A DNA stretch of 55,368 nt, taken from the IMG/VR virus record IMGVR_UViG_3300049489_000171, positions 1 through 55,368 of that record, one strand, 5' to 3'. Below are positions 3,509-16,783 of the stretch, piece by piece. Each line of letters starts with the position of its first letter. Position 1 is the stretch's first letter. Origin of the DNA: a virus. A model generated the notes under the pieces. That model saw only the letters and a program-made list of their open reading frames with translations, did not search any database and had not been told where the DNA came from. The position numbers and the translations under genes are program-made.

Positions 3509-3618
3509 CAAAGGTAGACGCGGCTAAATTTTCACAACCAGAAGGAGACGTGACTATGGATAACCAACACCAGAAGATCATCAGCATCATCCTGAAGCAC
3601 AAGGATGAACTGAAATGA
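3505..3618 (+). CDS. Very small protein, 37 aa
   Basis: The ATG at 3505 overlaps the upstream TGA, and the stop overlaps the ATG at 3615. An internal ATG at 3556 has a stronger ribosome site (AAGGAGACGTGACT), giving a 20-residue version (MDNQHQKIISIILKHKDELK). Both are possible. The end is a basic amphipathic helix. Function unknown. Confidence 0.5.
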   Translation: MTKVDAAKFSQPEGDVTMDNQHQKIISIILKHKDELK

Positions 3619-3812
3619 AAATCGAACGCCTAGCAGGAATCCCCGGGAAGCCGGAGGTTGCCCTAACAACCGGAGCAGTCTACCGCGTACTGCAAGGCGT
3701 GGAGCGCGGGTGGATAGCAGGCCCGCGTCGGTTTAGTGAGCGCGAGGCCATCAGCGCATGGAACACGATGGTACGCAGGATCAGGAAGCTGAATGCGGGA
3801 GGTGTGAAGTGA
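3615..3812 (+). CDS. Small protein, 65 aa, paralogue of the 2266 gene
   Basis: It shares with the 2266 product the pattern LxGxPGxPE near the start, VYxVxQG in the middle, R(x)xS(x)xEAxxxWNxMxxRI at the end, and similar length. This supports an old duplication within the operon. The GTG of the next gene overlaps its stop. Function unknown. Confidence 0.65.
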   Translation: MKIERLAGIPGKPEVALTTGAVYRVLQGVERGWIAGPRRFSEREAISAWNTMVRRIRKLNAGGVK

Positions 3813-3994
3813 CCACCCTACAATCCCTGCCAAACGACGTTGCCCGCTGCCGTGGACACAACTACGGGTATCCCTGCACCGACTGCCTGCGCCGGACAGC
3901 TCCGGTCAGCGGCGACAGGGCCGTGATGATGGAGCCACCGCCGCTTGTGCAGGATGGTAACTGTGAGGAGAGGATAGCCCCATGGCCGACCTAA
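3809..3994 (+). CDS. Small Cys protein, 61 aa
   Basis: GTG start at 3809 overlapping the stop upstream. It has one Cys early, then CTDCLRRTAP, a MMEPPPLVQDG stretch, and a final C-E-ERIAPW. Spaced Cys pairs around a basic DCLRRT motif recur in small phage proteins of unknown role; zinc binding is possible. It overlaps the next gene by 13 bp. Confidence 0.65.
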   Translation: MTTLQSLPNDVARCRGHNYGYPCTDCLRRTAPVSGDRAVMMEPPPLVQDGNCEERIAPWPT

Positions 3995-4206
3995 TCACCC
4001 GCGCCCGGGCGGTGGCGCTGAACGAGCGACTGGCCGAAGCCGTTCGCTACCTGCAAGACCAGATCGAAGCCCTGACCACACTCTGCAACGATCTGGAAGA
4101 GTTCGCGCAGCATGACGGCGGCTGTTACCTGCGGCACTCTGGCGACAAGTGCGACTGCGGCCTGCTGTCCACCATCAAGCGGCTCAACGAGAGGATGGGG
4201 TTGTGA
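3982..4206 (+). CDS. Small protein, 74 aa, coiled coil plus Cys/His
   Basis: Starts inside the end of the previous gene (13-bp overlap). Residues ~10-45 are heptad-like (LNERLAEAVRYLQDQIEAL). The second half contains CYLRHSGDKCDCGL, a possible metal site. The stop overlaps the GTG of the next gene. Function unknown. Confidence 0.65.
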   Translation: MADLITRARAVALNERLAEAVRYLQDQIEALTTLCNDLEEFAQHDGGCYLRHSGDKCDCGLLSTIKRLNERMGL

Positions 4207-11819: not shown

Positions 11820-11998
11820 TCACCGCCCTTGGCGAGTTCGTCGAGATCCCAGCGGGCAACTGGTCGGCGTCGCTGTGTGTCGAGGACGGCGTGAACGCGA
11901 TCCTGCTGGTTGACGACGCGCAGGAACCTCTGCTGCTCAAAGCGTTGAACGGGCAGTTGTACATCAAGCTGCTGGAGCCGGCGGAGGGGGAGCAGTGA
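11816..11998 (+). CDS. Small protein, 60 aa
   Basis: ATG 11816 overlaps the stop of the previous gene, and its own stop overlaps the methyltransferase start. Beta-rich and acidic (ILLVDDAQEPLLLKALNG). Its position between two modification genes suggests an accessory role, but nothing in the sequence shows it. Confidence 0.6.
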   Translation: MITALGEFVEIPAGNWSASLCVEDGVNAILLVDDAQEPLLLKALNGQLYIKLLEPAEGEQ

Positions 11999-13632
11999 GC
12001 GCGTACTACAACGAACACGATCCTGGCGCAGCCGCGTGGCTGCGTGAACTGATAAAGCAGGGCCACATCGCAGACGGCGTGGTCGATGAACGGAGTATCG
12101 AAGATGTCCTCCCAAGCGAACTGGCTGGATTTACCCAGTGCCACTTCTTCGCCGGTATCGGTGGCTGGAGCTACGCCCTTCGACTGGCTGGATGGCCCGA
12201 CGACAAGCCAGTCTGGACAGGCTCCTGCCCCTGTCAACCTTTCAGCGTCGCAGGCAAAGGAAAAGGGACTGCTGACGAGCGACACCTCTGGCCTGCCTTC
12301 GCCTGGCTCATCCGCCAGTGTCGCCCTTCAGTCGTCTTTGGCGAACAGGTTGCGAGTCGTGCTGGCCGGGGTTGGCTCGCCGGAGTACGCACTGACCTGG
12401 AAGCAATGGGATATGCAGTCGGGGCCGCCGATCTGTGCGCTGCGGGCGTCGGCGCACCGCATATCCGGCAGCGATTGTTTTGGGTGGGGAACGCCGACCG
12501 TGCAGGACGGAAAGCATTCAACACTCAGCCCATCGGAACTGAAACGGGATCCAGCGAACTTGCGACTGCGGGCTCATTCGGCTGGCGGCGCGTATCCTTC
12601 GCAGCCGACTGTCTCGGAGGTGACCCCGGAGAACTCGGTGACGAATGCTCAATCTGTGGACTCGACTACAGCAACGACTGCGAATGTCCAGGGCCAACGC
12701 AAGATGACGAATACGAATACACAGAACTCGACGGAATCCTTCTCGCTCGCAGGTTGGGTCACGCCATCGACGAGGGACTGGAAGGATACGCCGGGCATGG
12801 CGACGACGGGCACGAACCCGGATGGCTCGACACGGACCAGGATCGACCAGTTGCCGAGGCAGGCGGCGATAGCTGGTCAAACAGCGTCTGGATTCCCTGC
12901 GCAGACGGGAAATCGCGGCGCATTGTCGCCCGTCTTGCCTTGCTTCCTGATGGGATACCCCATACAATGGCTTCACTGCGTTCCACGCAAGGAGAAGTGA
13001 ATGCCGAGGCCACCGTTACCCGTCCCGACGAAGCACTGCAAATCCTGCGGCATGAAGATGGAGCGGAAGCGGTACGGAGCCGCGCTGGAAGATCGCCCGA
13101 CCTTCATGCGTCGGACGTTTTGCAACCGTGCGTGCATGGCAGCGTGGATGGAGGGACAGATCAAGGTTCCAACCCCAAAGAACAGCCGTCGCCAGTCGGC
13201 CAAGGAGAAAGCAGCGGCGTGCGCGAAGTGCGGATCAATGAAGCGGCTCCAAGTGCACCACAAAGACGAGAACCCGCTAAACAACGACCGCTCGAATTTG
13301 GAGACGTTGTGCGCTACTTGCCACATGCGTACTCACTGGCAATCTTGGAAGGAGACGACGCGACGGCCCAGGGTCTGCTCCGTGTGTATGAAGCCTGCCC
13401 GTCACTTGGGTCTGTGCAACACGCACTACAGTCGGTTCCGTCGCTACGGCGATCCGCTTGTGGTCAAGAGGTTCAACGGGCATGGGACGCCGGTCTTTTT
13501 GAAGGCTTCGGAATCATGGCCTGCAACCCGCTCACCAAAGCGTTCCCGTCTCGATCCGTCGCCCTGAAGGGGCTTGGCAATGCCATCGTCCCGCAAGTCG
13601 CGGCGGCGTTCATCGAAGCCTGCGGACTCTGA
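11995..13632 (+). CDS. C5-cytosine DNA methyltransferase with nested insertion
   Basis: Motif I FAGIGGWSYAL, motif IV GSCPCQPFS with catalytic Cys, a motif VI variant FGEQV, HIRQRLFWVG, WIPCADGKSRRI and the final LKGLGNAIVPQVAAAFI define a phage C5 methyltransferase. It would methylate cytosine in a short target, probably for protection from host restriction. The ~183 residues between GIPHTM and ACNPL (12967-13516) have no methyltransferase features and coincide with an HNH gene in the +1 frame. Removing them restores a normal ~362-residue enzyme. Residues ~36-335 are also overlapped by a companion gene. Whether the 545-residue form is active is unknown. Confidence 0.85.
   Translation: MSAYYNEHDPGAAAWLRELIKQGHIADGVVDERSIEDVLPSELAGFTQCHFFAGIGGWSYALRLAGWPDDKPVWTGSCPCQPFSVAGKGKGTADERHLWPAFAWLIRQCRPSVVFGEQVASRAGRGWLAGVRTDLEAMGYAVGAADLCAAGVGAPHIRQRLFWVGNADRAGRKAFNTQPIGTETGSSELATAGSFGWRRVSFAADCLGGDPGELGDECSICGLDYSNDCECPGPTQDDEYEYTELDGILLARRLGHAIDEGLEGYAGHGDDGHEPGWLDTDQDRPVAEAGGDSWSNSVWIPCADGKSRRIVARLALLPDGIPHTMASLRSTQGEVNAEATVTRPDEALQILRHEDGAEAVRSRAGRSPDLHASDVLQPCVHGSVDGGTDQGSNPKEQPSPVGQGESSGVREVRINEAAPSAPQRREPAKQRPLEFGDVVRYLPHAYSLAILEGDDATAQGLLRVYEACPSLGSVQHALQSVPSLRRSACGQEVQRAWDAGLFEGFGIMACNPLTKAFPSRSVALKGLGNAIVPQVAAAFIEACGL
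12104..13000 (+). CDS. Methyltransferase companion protein, nested in +1 frame
   Basis: A 298-residue protein wholly inside the methyltransferase gene, in the +1 frame. It matches a phage protein type I recognise beside or overlapping C5 methyltransferases: SSLANRLRVVLAGVGSPEYA, LTWKQWDM, PPICALRASAHR, WVTPSTRDWKDTPGM, RIDQLPRQAA and FLMGYPIQW. ATG 12104 follows CGGAG with 8-base spacing and is preferred to 12086. Its role is unknown. The normal tail seems displaced: the frame stops after VPRKEK at 13000, and a tail-like sequence (PATRSPKRSR) now ends the HNH gene. Confidence 0.7.
   Translation: MSSQANWLDLPSATSSPVSVAGATPFDWLDGPTTSQSGQAPAPVNLSASQAKEKGLLTSDTSGLPSPGSSASVALQSSLANRLRVVLAGVGSPEYALTWKQWDMQSGPPICALRASAHRISGSDCFGWGTPTVQDGKHSTLSPSELKRDPANLRLRAHSAGGAYPSQPTVSEVTPENSVTNAQSVDSTTATTANVQGQRKMTNTNTQNSTESFSLAGWVTPSTRDWKDTPGMATTGTNPDGSTRTRIDQLPRQAAIAGQTASGFPAQTGNRGALSPVLPCFLMGYPIQWLHCVPRKEK
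12967..13520 (+). mobile_element. Inferred HNH-carrying insertion in the methyltransferase/companion pair
   Basis: ATGGC occurs at 12967-12971 and 13516-13520. The 549-bp interval is 183 codons, so both host frames keep register. Joining the ATGGC copies gives ...DGIPHTM-ACNPLTKAF... for the methyltransferase and ...MGYPIQW-PATRSPKR... for the companion. The insert holds little more than a ribosome site and the HNH gene, so a group I intron core is unlikely. Boundaries are inferred without an uninterrupted relative. Confidence 0.55.
13001..13567 (+). CDS. HNH homing-type endonuclease, nested in +1 frame
   Basis: A 188-residue protein with its own ribosome site (AAGGAGAAGTGA before ATG 13001), starting at once after the companion stop. 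N-terminal Cys pairs (C13/C16, C41/C45, C74/C77) suggest zinc binding. The HNH core is LQVHHKDENPLNNDRSNLET with CATCHMRTHW (H86, H87, N99, H108). LGLCNTHYSRFRRYGDP is common at the end of such phage endonucleases. The last ~16 residues look like the former tail of the companion protein. Such enzymes spread by cutting alleles that lack them. Confidence 0.8.
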   Translation: MPRPPLPVPTKHCKSCGMKMERKRYGAALEDRPTFMRRTFCNRACMAAWMEGQIKVPTPKNSRRQSAKEKAAACAKCGSMKRLQVHHKDENPLNNDRSNLETLCATCHMRTHWQSWKETTRRPRVCSVCMKPARHLGLCNTHYSRFRRYGDPLVVKRFNGHGTPVFLKASESWPATRSPKRSRLDPSP

Positions 13633-13647
13633 GGACTGGCTGGCGAT

Positions 13648-16509
13648 ATGAAGGTCCACATCGACATCGAGACCTACAGCGAAGCGGACCTCAAGAAAGA
13701 AGGACTCTACCGCCACGCCAACGACTACAGCACCGAACTGCTGGTCGTCTGCTACGCCATCGACGACGGGCCTGTGATGACTTGGTGGCCGGTTCCAGAC
13801 GTGCCCGCCGCGCTGAGGGTGCCCCCCGCGCACGTTGGCGAGCAGGCGCCGGCAGACCTTCTCGCCGCTCTCGAAGCCGGCGCCACGGTCTACGCACACA
13901 ACGCGAGTTTCGAGAGAGCCGTTCTCTCTGGTCACGTCGGACGGCGTCACGGCTTCCCGGTCCTGCGGCCAAGCCGCATGGTCTGCACCGCAGCCAAAGC
14001 GGCGGCACACGGCCTGCCGCGCTCCCTGGAGGACGCCTGCAAGGCTATTGGCACCCGACCCAAGATGGCCAGCGGCAGAGCCAACATGCTTCAGTTGGCC
14101 AAGCCGCGTACTGGCAAGCAGCACCGCTACGAGATGGCGGACTACCCGGAGAAGTACGCGGACCTGGCCGCGTATTGCGTGGACGACGTGCGGGCCGAAC
14201 GTGACCTCGACCGCCGGCTCCCTGACCTCACCCCGAGAGAGCAGGCGGTCTGGGAGCTCGACCAGTTGATCAACGACCGCGGCGTGCGGCTGGACCGCAA
14301 AGCCATTGCCGACGTGCAGTTTCTGATCGCCGAGTACAAGGCTGAACTGAAGAAACTGTGCATCGAGTGGACGGGCTGCAACCCGACCCAGACCGCCGAG
14401 ATCGCCAATTGGGTGCGCAAGCACGGCTACCCGCAGTTGGTCGATCTGCAGAAAGCCTCGGTCGACGTGGCACTGCAGGACGAGGCGTGTCCTGAGAACG
14501 TGCGCCAGGTGCTGCGCCTTCGGTCGACCTATGCGATGGCCGCGGTCGCCAAGTACACGGCGATGGAGACCTCGGTTGGCGATGACGACCGCCTGCGCGG
14601 GATGCTCTTGTACCACGGAGCGGCAACCGGCCGCTGGGCCTCGCTGCTCGTGCAGCTTCAAAACATGTTCCGCCCGGTGATCAAGGACGTGCCGACCGCG
14701 ATCGAGGCGTTCGCCTTGCGTGACCTGCAGTGGGTCAAAGATCTGTACCCGGCCGACCCTATGAAGGTCTTCGCCTCGGCGGTCAGGGGCATGATCATCC
14801 CCGCTGAGGGGAAAGACCTGATGGCGTTGGACTTCAGCGCCATTGAGGCCCGGGTGCTGGCATGGCTCGCGGGTCAACGCGACATCCTCGCCGTGTTCGC
14901 CACCCACGGCAAGGTCTACGAGTACACCGCGGGGCAGATTTACCGGGTGCCGCTGGAGAAGGTCACCGAGGCCCAGCGGTTCATCGGCAAGGTCGCCGTG
15001 CTGGCACTGGGCTACCAGGGTGGTCAGGCAGCGTTCGCCAAGATGGCCAAGAACTTCGGCGTTGACATCCCCGAGGAGCGGGCCAACGAGATCAAGAACG
15101 ACTGGCGCAAGGCCAACAACTTCATCGTCCAGTTCTGGTACGACATCGAGACCGCGGCCAAAGCAGCGGTCGGTAACCCTGGGCAGGCGTTCGGTGTGCC
15201 GTCCAAGCGGATCGTCTTCTGTGTGAAAGACCGTTGGTTGGTGATGCGCCTGCCGTCGGGCCGCAAGCTGTACTACCTCGACCCGGAGATCGACGAGAAC
15301 GGCCAAGTCACATACATGGGCGTGGACACGTACACGCGCCGCTGGTGCAGGGTCGGAACGTATGGCGGGAAGCTCTGCCTTGCGGGGGACACGGAAGTGC
15401 TCACTGATAAAGGGTGGCTGCCGATTAGCCAGTACCGTGAGGGGGCCAGACTGTGGGACGGAGCGGCTTGGGTTTACGGTGGTAAGCTACTTGATCAAGG
15501 GGTCAAGCCTGTAATACGCTACGCGGGCGTTTGGATGACTTCTGATCACGAGGTACTGTCGAATGAAGGCTGGAAAACCGCCGAAGCTATGGCATCGGGC
15601 CAAGGACTTGAGCGGGCGCAAGTTCGCCTACCTGACTGTTCTCCGGTACTCTCACAGCGAGCGTGGCAAGACGTTCTGGGTTCTGCGGTGCGAGTGCGGG
15701 AAAGAGACGGTGGCCGAGGGGGCCGGATTGACTCGAGCCCGCGGCCCTTCACCGAAGTCATGTGGGTGCAAGACCGGCGCGTTGATTGCCGCGGGCAACA
15801 CGCAACACGGCCTGTCCAAGCACCCGGCGTACTGGGTGTATCGAAGCATGATCGACCGCTGTCGGCTGCCGTCTCATCAGGCATGGCACAACTATGGCGG
15901 CAGGGGTATACGGGTTTGCGCACGCTGGCGGAAAGGCTTTGCGTTCTTCTGGGCAGACATGGAGCGCGGATATCAGCCAGGGCTGTGCTTGGAGCGGGTG
16001 AACAACGCGAAGGGGTATTCGCCCGAGAACTGTCGGTGGGCTACGTACAGGGAGCAGGCCAACAATACGCGCATGAACCGAAAGATAAATACCCTTTGGG
16101 GGCTGATGACGGTCACTCAAGCCGGCAGAAAGGCCGGGCTTCTGAATACAACGATCCTCGAAAGGATCAAAAGAGGTTGGCCGGAGAGCAGACTGCTCGA
16201 ACCTACGACATAGCCAACGTCGGGCCGCGCAATCGCTTCACGGTTCGTGGCGACGCCGGAGAGGTGTTTATCGTCCACAACTGCGAAAACAGTGTGCAAG
16301 CTATTGCGCGCGACCTGCTGGTCAACGGTATGTTCGAGTTGGAGGCGGCCGGCTACCCCCTGGTCCTGACCGTGCATGACGAGGTGGTCATGGAAGTGGA
16401 CTCTGGCGATCTGGACGAGGCGGCGGCGCTGATGTGCCGGTTGCCAGAATGGGCGAAGGGGCTGCCAGTTAAGGCTGAAGGTTGGGTTGGGGTTCGTTAC
16501 AGGAAGTAA
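13648..16509 (+). CDS. polA-like: DNA polymerase A family, interrupted by an intein
   Basis: A 953-residue precursor; 651 residues without the intein, typical for phage family A polymerases. 3'-5' exonuclease motifs: IDIET (Asp6, Glu8), AHNASFERA and YCVDDVRAE. Polymerase motif A is LDFSAIEARVL (Asp395), motif B is RFIGKVAVLALGYQGG, and motif C is VHDEVV (Asp911 of the precursor). The intein interrupts GGKL/CENSVQAIARDL, a conserved active-site region, so the enzyme should need splicing. It replicates phage DNA with the primase-helicase. ATG 13648 directly opens the exonuclease domain. Confidence 0.92.
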   Translation: MKVHIDIETYSEADLKKEGLYRHANDYSTELLVVCYAIDDGPVMTWWPVPDVPAALRVPPAHVGEQAPADLLAALEAGATVYAHNASFERAVLSGHVGRRHGFPVLRPSRMVCTAAKAAAHGLPRSLEDACKAIGTRPKMASGRANMLQLAKPRTGKQHRYEMADYPEKYADLAAYCVDDVRAERDLDRRLPDLTPREQAVWELDQLINDRGVRLDRKAIADVQFLIAEYKAELKKLCIEWTGCNPTQTAEIANWVRKHGYPQLVDLQKASVDVALQDEACPENVRQVLRLRSTYAMAAVAKYTAMETSVGDDDRLRGMLLYHGAATGRWASLLVQLQNMFRPVIKDVPTAIEAFALRDLQWVKDLYPADPMKVFASAVRGMIIPAEGKDLMALDFSAIEARVLAWLAGQRDILAVFATHGKVYEYTAGQIYRVPLEKVTEAQRFIGKVAVLALGYQGGQAAFAKMAKNFGVDIPEERANEIKNDWRKANNFIVQFWYDIETAAKAAVGNPGQAFGVPSKRIVFCVKDRWLVMRLPSGRKLYYLDPEIDENGQVTYMGVDTYTRRWCRVGTYGGKLCLAGDTEVLTDKGWLPISQYREGARLWDGAAWVYGGKLLDQGVKPVIRYAGVWMTSDHEVLSNEGWKTAEAMASGQGLERAQVRLPDCSPVLSQRAWQDVLGSAVRVRERDGGRGGRIDSSPRPFTEVMWVQDRRVDCRGQHATRPVQAPGVLGVSKHDRPLSAAVSSGMAQLWRQGYTGLRTLAERLCVLLGRHGARISARAVLGAGEQREGVFARELSVGYVQGAGQQYAHEPKDKYPLGADDGHSSRQKGRASEYNDPRKDQKRLAGEQTARTYDIANVGPRNRFTVRGDAGEVFIVHNCENSVQAIARDLLVNGMFELEAAGYPLVLTVHDEVVMEVDSGDLDEAAALMCRLPEWAKGLPVKAEGWVGVRYRK
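15376..16281 (+). mobile_element. Intein in DNA polymerase (302 aa)
   Basis: Residues 577-878 of the precursor. Block A starts with Cys577 (CLAGDTEVLTDKGWLPI), block B contains TSDHE (His634), block F reads TYDIANVGPRNRFTVRG, and block G ends VFIVHN before Cys879. These are the nucleophile, His and Asn-plus-Cys needed for class 1 splicing. The middle (~170-200 residues) shows no in-frame endonuclease motif I recognise. Instead an endonuclease gene lies there in the +1 frame. Confidence 0.9.
15563..16213 (+). CDS. Homing endonuclease nested in the intein, +1 frame
   Basis: A 216-residue HNH/AP2-type phage endonuclease. A CECGKE...SCGC zinc-like region is followed by WVYRSMIDRCR, NYGGRGIRVC, LERVNNAKGYSPENCRWAT and REQANNTRMN, the core of the family. 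A NUMOD-like end (TVTQAGRKAGLLNTTILERI) suits DNA recognition. ATG 15563 has GAGG 9 bases upstream. The gene begins just after intein block B and stops within block F, exactly where an in-frame endonuclease domain normally sits. It likely drives spread of the intein as a separate protein. Confidence 0.85.
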   Translation: MKAGKPPKLWHRAKDLSGRKFAYLTVLRYSHSERGKTFWVLRCECGKETVAEGAGLTRARGPSPKSCGCKTGALIAAGNTQHGLSKHPAYWVYRSMIDRCRLPSHQAWHNYGGRGIRVCARWRKGFAFFWADMERGYQPGLCLERVNNAKGYSPENCRWATYREQANNTRMNRKINTLWGLMTVTQAGRKAGLLNTTILERIKRGWPESRLLEPTT

Positions 16510-16510
16510 A

Positions 16511-16783
16511 ATGAGAGAAGGCCCCATTCAAAAGAACGTGGTCGCCTATGCCCGCAAGAAAGGTTTCTGGGCGCGCAAGTTCGTCAGCCAGCATCGCCGG
16601 TCGGCGCCTGACTTCATCTTCGGGTGGGATCGCCAAATCTGGTTCATCGAGTTTAAGGCGACAGGCGAGCAGCCTACCGAGTTGCAGGCCAAGGAGCACA
16701 AAGAGATGCGCGATGTCGGGCTGACCGTCTACGTTGTTGACGACATCGACACAGGGCGCGCCATCATAGACTCGTATGCTTAG
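16511..16783 (+). CDS. VRR-NUC domain nuclease
   Basis: A 90-residue stand-alone VRR-NUC domain. PDFIFGW (Asp34) and FIEFKATG (Glu47, Lys49) form the PD-(D/E)xK active site, preceded by Q-N-VV-YARKKGFW. Phage members cut branched DNA, and the usual neighbour is an SNF2-like helicase, as here. ATG 16511 is one base after the polymerase stop; the longer frame from 16487 overlaps the polymerase end. Confidence 0.85.
   Translation: MREGPIQKNVVAYARKKGFWARKFVSQHRRSAPDFIFGWDRQIWFIEFKATGEQPTELQAKEHKEMRDVGLTVYVVDDIDTGRAIIDSYA

Follow-up and report, generated by a model that had tools for sequence, protein, structure and literature searches.

The window analysed here is the whole 55,368-nucleotide stretch of viral DNA (IMG/VR record IMGVR_UViG_3300049489_000171), and positions 13648-16509 of its plus strand constitute a polymerase frame that is open over 953 codons. 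The frame encodes the precursor of a phage family A DNA polymerase that is interrupted by an intein, and in the DNA of this intein a gene for an HNH endonuclease is found in a second frame of the same strand. The following features are relevant for all further considerations:

13648..16509, plus strand: gene for the precursor of a phage family A DNA polymerase, including the in-frame intein (open frame; DNA_pol_A matched in two stretches)
15376..16281, plus strand: intein of 302 residues, Cys1 to Asn302, followed by the +1 Cys (block residues; AlphaFold2 Hint domain; Foldseek)
15526..15582, plus strand: Hint block B region (GVWMTSDHEVLSNEGWKTA) with its His at 15547-15549 (invariant T55, H58, W66)
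15536..15538, plus strand: TGA closing the HNH frame 8 codons 5' of the ATG (sequence; open stretch of 224 codons)
15550..15554, plus strand: GAGGT, a Shine-Dalgarno-like site 8 nt 5' of the HNH ATG (sequence; codon choice across 103 loci)
15563..16213, plus strand: overprinted HNH endonuclease gene, starting with ATG, 216 aa, +1 frame relative to the intein (PHROG 374/3377; dN/dS 0.16 across the family; model mean pLDDT 91)
15640..16176, plus strand: intein-frame linker, residues 89-267, spanning the HNH gene; predicted to be disordered, open, unconserved as protein (pLDDT mostly <50; dN/dS 1.74)
16201..16284, plus strand: Hint blocks F and G (TYDIANVGPRNRFTV ... FIVHN) and the +1 Cys (invariant D278, G283, F288, N302, C303)

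The intein corresponds to polymerase residues 577-878, with Cys577 at its start, His634 within the TSDHEV motif, and His877-Asn878 directly before Cys879, and the residue criteria of inteins of the Hint superfamily are satisfied (a nucleophile at position 1, the block-B TxxH, an (H)N end, and C, S or T at +1). DNA_pol_A matches lie on both sides, which marks an in-frame insertion in a conserved motif of the host protein, and intein-less homologues exist, as most of the 1637 matching phage records are without the middle part. Cys1 and the [HS]N before C, S or T are retained in 106 of 106 non-redundant relatives, and the polymerase is predicted to have a length of 651 aa once the intein is spliced out. 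Taken by itself, the window intein matches the Pfam Hint profile weakly (E 0.19); in the AlphaFold2 model, both Hint halves mostly reach pLDDT values of 94-98, residues 89-267 being mostly below 50, and inteins are the best Foldseek matches of this model (E 1.7e-4 and above). The profile search of the window gave no family match for the intein-frame middle, and the canonical criterion of an in-frame endonuclease is thus not met. On the basis of the splicing residues and the predicted Hint fold, it is likely that the polymerase carries a genuine intein; splicing itself is inferred from sequence alone.

The first base of the HNH ORF is position 2 of an intein codon (phase 1), and its protein is matched by the HNH profile of PHROG 374 at E=8e-54, with matches also to other HNH families. 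A structure search with the model of this protein found no PDB match at E<=0.001. To I-HmuI (PDB 1u3e), an HNH nicking endonuclease that is encoded by a phage intron, there is only a weak profile match over the HNH motif, and the motif His of I-HmuI is replaced by Arg in the window's family, so that catalysis has to be assumed from family membership.

The codons of block B double as carriers of the Shine-Dalgarno site and start codon of the HNH gene, with GAGGT being encoded by the 'HEV' codons, and the HNH stop codon falls inside block F. Anti-Shine-Dalgarno binding 5' of the HNH start amounts to -7.1 kcal/mol, as compared to -5.6 kcal/mol in synonymous shuffles (n=103, p=8.5e-12), and control windows show no excess of such binding. 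This p-value is too small, because the loci are related, and in the window alone the effect is weak, with 28% of the shuffles binding equally well. Going 5' from the HNH start, the first stop in this frame is reached after a median of 6 codons across the family (8 in the window), and this speaks against a frameshift fusion. The HNH protein is therefore probably made by separate internal initiation, and its translation is inferred from sequence alone, not shown. The first-pass annotation had described an out-of-frame endonuclease gene nested between the splicing blocks, and this held, coordinates and residue numbers included. For its label 'AP2-type' no support was found, the protein being an HNH enzyme of PHROGs 374/3377, and the separate production of intein and endonuclease that it envisaged remains an inference.

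Distribution of the arrangement and openness of the intein frame

A tblastn search with the precursor detected the whole intein in the polymerases of the Caulobacter phages GB2A, RW, RLK and KcrB, of Shewanella phage SFCi1 and of APSE phages, and the HNH protein as query hits the same places. In all three isolates that were fully read (Caulobacter RLK, Shewanella SFCi1, APSE-1), the HNH gene is shifted by one base against the intein frame, and the same geometry recurs in more than 100 viral and prophage contigs. As isolated, independently sequenced phages and so many contigs share it, the geometry is not an assembly error; an assembly frameshift as source of the overlap, which would have refuted the first-pass annotation, is thereby ruled out. 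The presence in more than 100 other phages and prophages also indicates a lasting form of a mobile element and not a sequence accident. In public records, the nested gene is annotated as a shortened P46 in APSE-1 (3743-4165 of L002, the longer HNH ORF being 3515-4162), and it is unannotated in Caulobacter RLK and Shewanella SFCi1 (L003 and L004). The APSE-1 overlap is thus already in the databases, seemingly without its meaning having been recognised.

Two contig surveys were carried out, the counts of which include redundant contigs. The first one took from viral and prophage contigs those inteins in which both Hint blocks share a single open frame, and comprised 142 inteins, with the HNH gene in phase 1 in 134, in phase 2 in 3, in frame in 0, and no HNH in 5. 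The query of the second survey omitted the linker, and of its 84 inteins, 44 had the HNH gene in phase 1, 13 in phase 2, one had two HNH matches (both phase 1), and 26 had no HNH match. Not a single HNH match in the intein frame was found across both surveys. The 26 HNH-less inteins are mini-inteins of 110-180 aa, several of them at the same polymerase and helicase sites. Single polymerase genes can carry two dual-coded inteins, as observed in L017 (4214-5080 and 5459-6382, HNH in phase 2 and then phase 1) and also in L226 and L230. On L324, a contig of L226, an SNF2-type helicase gene (reverse strand, 378-2673) has an intein at another site (HPA/C ... HN/S), which contains a divergent HNH ORF in phase 1.

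Is the intein frame open by chance, or is it kept open? Over the window's HNH gene, the intein frame has 0 stops, where the HNH codon usage predicts 8.7, and the other shadow frame has 12. The intein frame is open in 103 of 103 non-redundant phase-1 HNH genes (median of 11 stops in the third frame), whereas the equivalent frame is open in only 1 of 171 free-standing HNH homologues (median 15 stops). This one case is L158, in which no intein motifs were seen. As T at a third HNH codon position followed by AA, AG or GA creates an intein-frame stop, expected numbers can be given: 0 stops were observed in the 103 nested genes versus about 929 expected, and 494 versus 635 in GC-rich free-standing HNH genes in the same codon test. 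The 44 free-standing genes above 55% GC have 1-13 stops each in the equivalent frame, some of them as few as 1-3; nested HNH genes are open even down to 39% GC.

Because the inteins had first been chosen by openness, the count was redone from HNH genes flanked by both Hint blocks without any openness filter, and 137 of 138 share one open intein frame, which rules out a selection bias from choosing open loci. The sole exception, L225, is a fractured intein at another, upstream polymerase site, and L191 looks alike. Relatives whose intein frame is regularly interrupted by stops, which likewise would have refuted the first annotation, were thus looked for and not seen, and its reading as a dual-coded intein held in every test run, on comparative counts. 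As to the fractured inteins themselves (L191:1823-2820, L225:135-1139), each is a second intein (GRWSG/C ... HN/S) with its N and C halves in separate ORFs and an HNH gene between them that overlaps both, and the same polymerase gene contains an intact dual-coded intein.

Selection was assessed with 25 independent close pairs. Their dN/dS is 0.159 for the HNH frame; for the intein frame, it is 0.154 within the Hint blocks and 1.74 where this frame runs over the HNH gene. The first, second and third positions of the HNH codons show 749, 586 and 1852 substitutions, respectively. Calculations of dN/dS in overlapping frames ignore the mutual constraint and can serve as a guide only. By sequence comparison, the HNH frame is under purifying selection, and the intein frame is constrained in the Hint blocks and not across the HNH gene. 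Together with the structure predictions, this means that the linker must stay open yet need not fold, and that the overprinted frame encodes a conserved protein.

Clades, transfer and loss

In the FastTree analysis, 115 phase-1 HNH proteins form one clade (SH 91) and 13 phase-2 proteins another (SH 99), and neither clade includes any free-standing gene. The phase-2 inteins that were read are all positioned directly after the GK motif of the polymerase. Phase-1 inteins occur in the polymerase and also in the neighbouring SNF2-type helicase, the site of which is empty in the window. The simplest reading is that dual coding had at least two origins, and that each was afterwards inherited as a unit.

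At 76 polymerase loci, Hint distances correlate with HNH distances at 0.42 and with extein distances at 0.22, the latter correlation being reduced to 0.09 when HNH distances are held fixed. The Hint parts of L007 and L016 are 94% identical and their exteins 46%, and both this pair and the discordance of Hint and extein distances point to horizontal transfer. L016 and L019 are two contigs from one metagenome with about 99.8% identity, and L019 lacks a stretch of exactly 531 bp, or 177 codons, of the HNH gene. The deletion in L019 occurred at an ACCG microhomology, both frames are still in register, and the splicing blocks are intact. Provided that the difference is not an artefact of assembly, L019 thus represents an intein allele from which the endonuclease was naturally deleted. 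Mini-inteins and the HNH-deleted allele indicate that the HNH gene is dispensable. For a separate loss of intein and endonuclease, which the first-pass annotation envisaged, there is support in one direction only, namely from mini-inteins at the same sites and from the HNH loss in L019.

Known systems, proposed mechanism and meaning

The usual description of an intein is that of a splicing domain and an endonuclease domain in one frame. The nearest published precedent of the arrangement is not an intein. It is known as ShiLan: a phage methylase contains an HNH gene that is out of frame, and the authors judged this insertion to be neither intein nor intron (PMC11855218). In both cases, an out-of-frame HNH gene lies in a host gene whose own frame has no stops, but the ShiLan insertion has no splicing blocks, its host protein is thought to retain the insert, and no Shine-Dalgarno site was found by its authors, whereas the window has a complete flanking Hint domain with block-B codons that supply such a site. 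Just 5' of the window's polymerase, a C5-cytosine methylase ORF (11995-13632) holds a second out-of-frame HNH ORF (13001-13567, phase 1, with zinc fingers and AAGGAG before its ATG) that resembles the ShiLan insertion. A nested homologue of this HNH ORF (41% identity, same phase) is found in the methylase of Staphylococcus phage CUB-EPI_14, and in L327, with which the window methylase was also compared, the deposited CDS is in another frame.

In canonical inteins, the endonuclease is inserted at a conserved position (PMC6801210), and in PI-SceI and PI-MtuI it interrupts the Hint domain between blocks B and F as in the window, but there it is an in-frame domain of the same polypeptide and not a separate overlapping gene. 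In fractured genes, the intein is reported to be split, its two halves being separated by a free-standing endonuclease gene (Dassa 2009). They share with the window a complete endonuclease gene with its own start between N and C parts of the intein, but the window's intein/polymerase frame is continuous, and intein halves on separate ORFs are present instead in L191 and L225. APSE P45 holds an intein of the window's kind, overlapped by the HNH ORF in phase 1. No description of dual coding of APSE P45/P46, or of APSE in connection with its polymerase intein, was found in the literature searched; related cases may be covered by a preprint of 2025 that deals with actinobacteriophage inteins of 'non-canonical architecture'. 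In the Felix O1 genome paper, an out-of-frame nuclease was used to rule out inteins (PMC3185647).

The locus is most likely a mobile cis-splicing intein, the homing endonuclease of which is encoded by an overprinted gene that is translated separately. Reading of the polymerase frame would give a 953-aa precursor in which the Hint halves fold together around an unstructured linker of about 180 aa, and the intein would splice out in cis from one polypeptide to yield the 651-aa polymerase. Initiation at the internal ATG, aided by the Shine-Dalgarno site that is lent by the block-B codons, would give the 216-aa HNH endonuclease, which may nick or cut the conserved insertion motif in polymerase alleles that have no intein, and intein and HNH gene would be copied together into the cut alleles. 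The need for an uninterrupted polymerase would keep the shadow frame free of stops, and the need for endonuclease activity would keep the HNH protein conserved. Both frames with their conservation, the two kinds of selection, the separate clade for each phase, the horizontal movement and the HNH loss can be read from the sequences. Splicing, HNH translation, cleavage and homing are inferred only, and the copying into empty alleles rests on discordant distances alone.

What alternatives exist for this mechanism? The intein could in principle be dual-coded but domesticated and no longer homing, with the HNH protein being kept for another task such as cutting the DNA of competitor phages or helping replication. 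HNH distances partly follow the exteins (partial correlation 0.29), and the history may thus be largely vertical. However, Hint distances do not agree with extein distances, a recent transfer seems to have occurred in some cases (L007/L016), the same clade is found in polymerase and helicase genes, and mini-inteins and the HNH-deleted allele show that the HNH gene can be dispensed with, which together make this alternative unlikely. A second possibility is that the insert is removed at the RNA level, or that ribosomes enter the HNH frame from the polymerase frame by a programmed frameshift, in which case the overlap would be only apparent. HNH genes are common in group I introns, and a cyanophage DNA polymerase gene has a group I intron carrying one (PMC3428280). 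Nevertheless, this explanation is very unlikely, as the Rfam search of 13600-16600 found no match to any intron family, Hint blocks ending with HN/C flank the HNH gene, and a stop closes the HNH frame so shortly before its start. A chance or decaying overlap, with an HNH gene recently dropped into a mini-intein whose frame is open merely by accident, the genome being GC-rich, could be favoured by the fairly open shadow frames at high GC, but is practically excluded by the open frame in every nested phase-1 gene versus one free-standing gene, the absence of the roughly 929 expected stops, the one phase per clade, and the nested genes that are open at 39% GC.

The mobile dual-coded intein also permits a bolder reading, which is conceivable but for which the balance tips slightly to the negative. 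Overprinting might be a strategy and not a relic of insertion, with two or more origins within this nuclease family (the phase-1 and the phase-2 clade), and might slow the decay phase of the homing cycle. An endonuclease gene that lies across an essential polymerase or helicase frame would be shielded from decay by frameshifts and most deletions, because such mutations also break the host gene. If this were true, the arrangement would be a natural counterpart of engineered gene entanglement.

Irrespective of the bolder reading, widespread inteins with an endonuclease hidden in another frame would pass for endonuclease-less inteins, and their nucleases remain unannotated. Dual coding would separate the expression of splicing from that of cutting, and it provides a same-strand overlap of about 650 nt in which the roles of both frames are readable. 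The idea that an overlap protects a selfish gene from decay thereby becomes directly testable.
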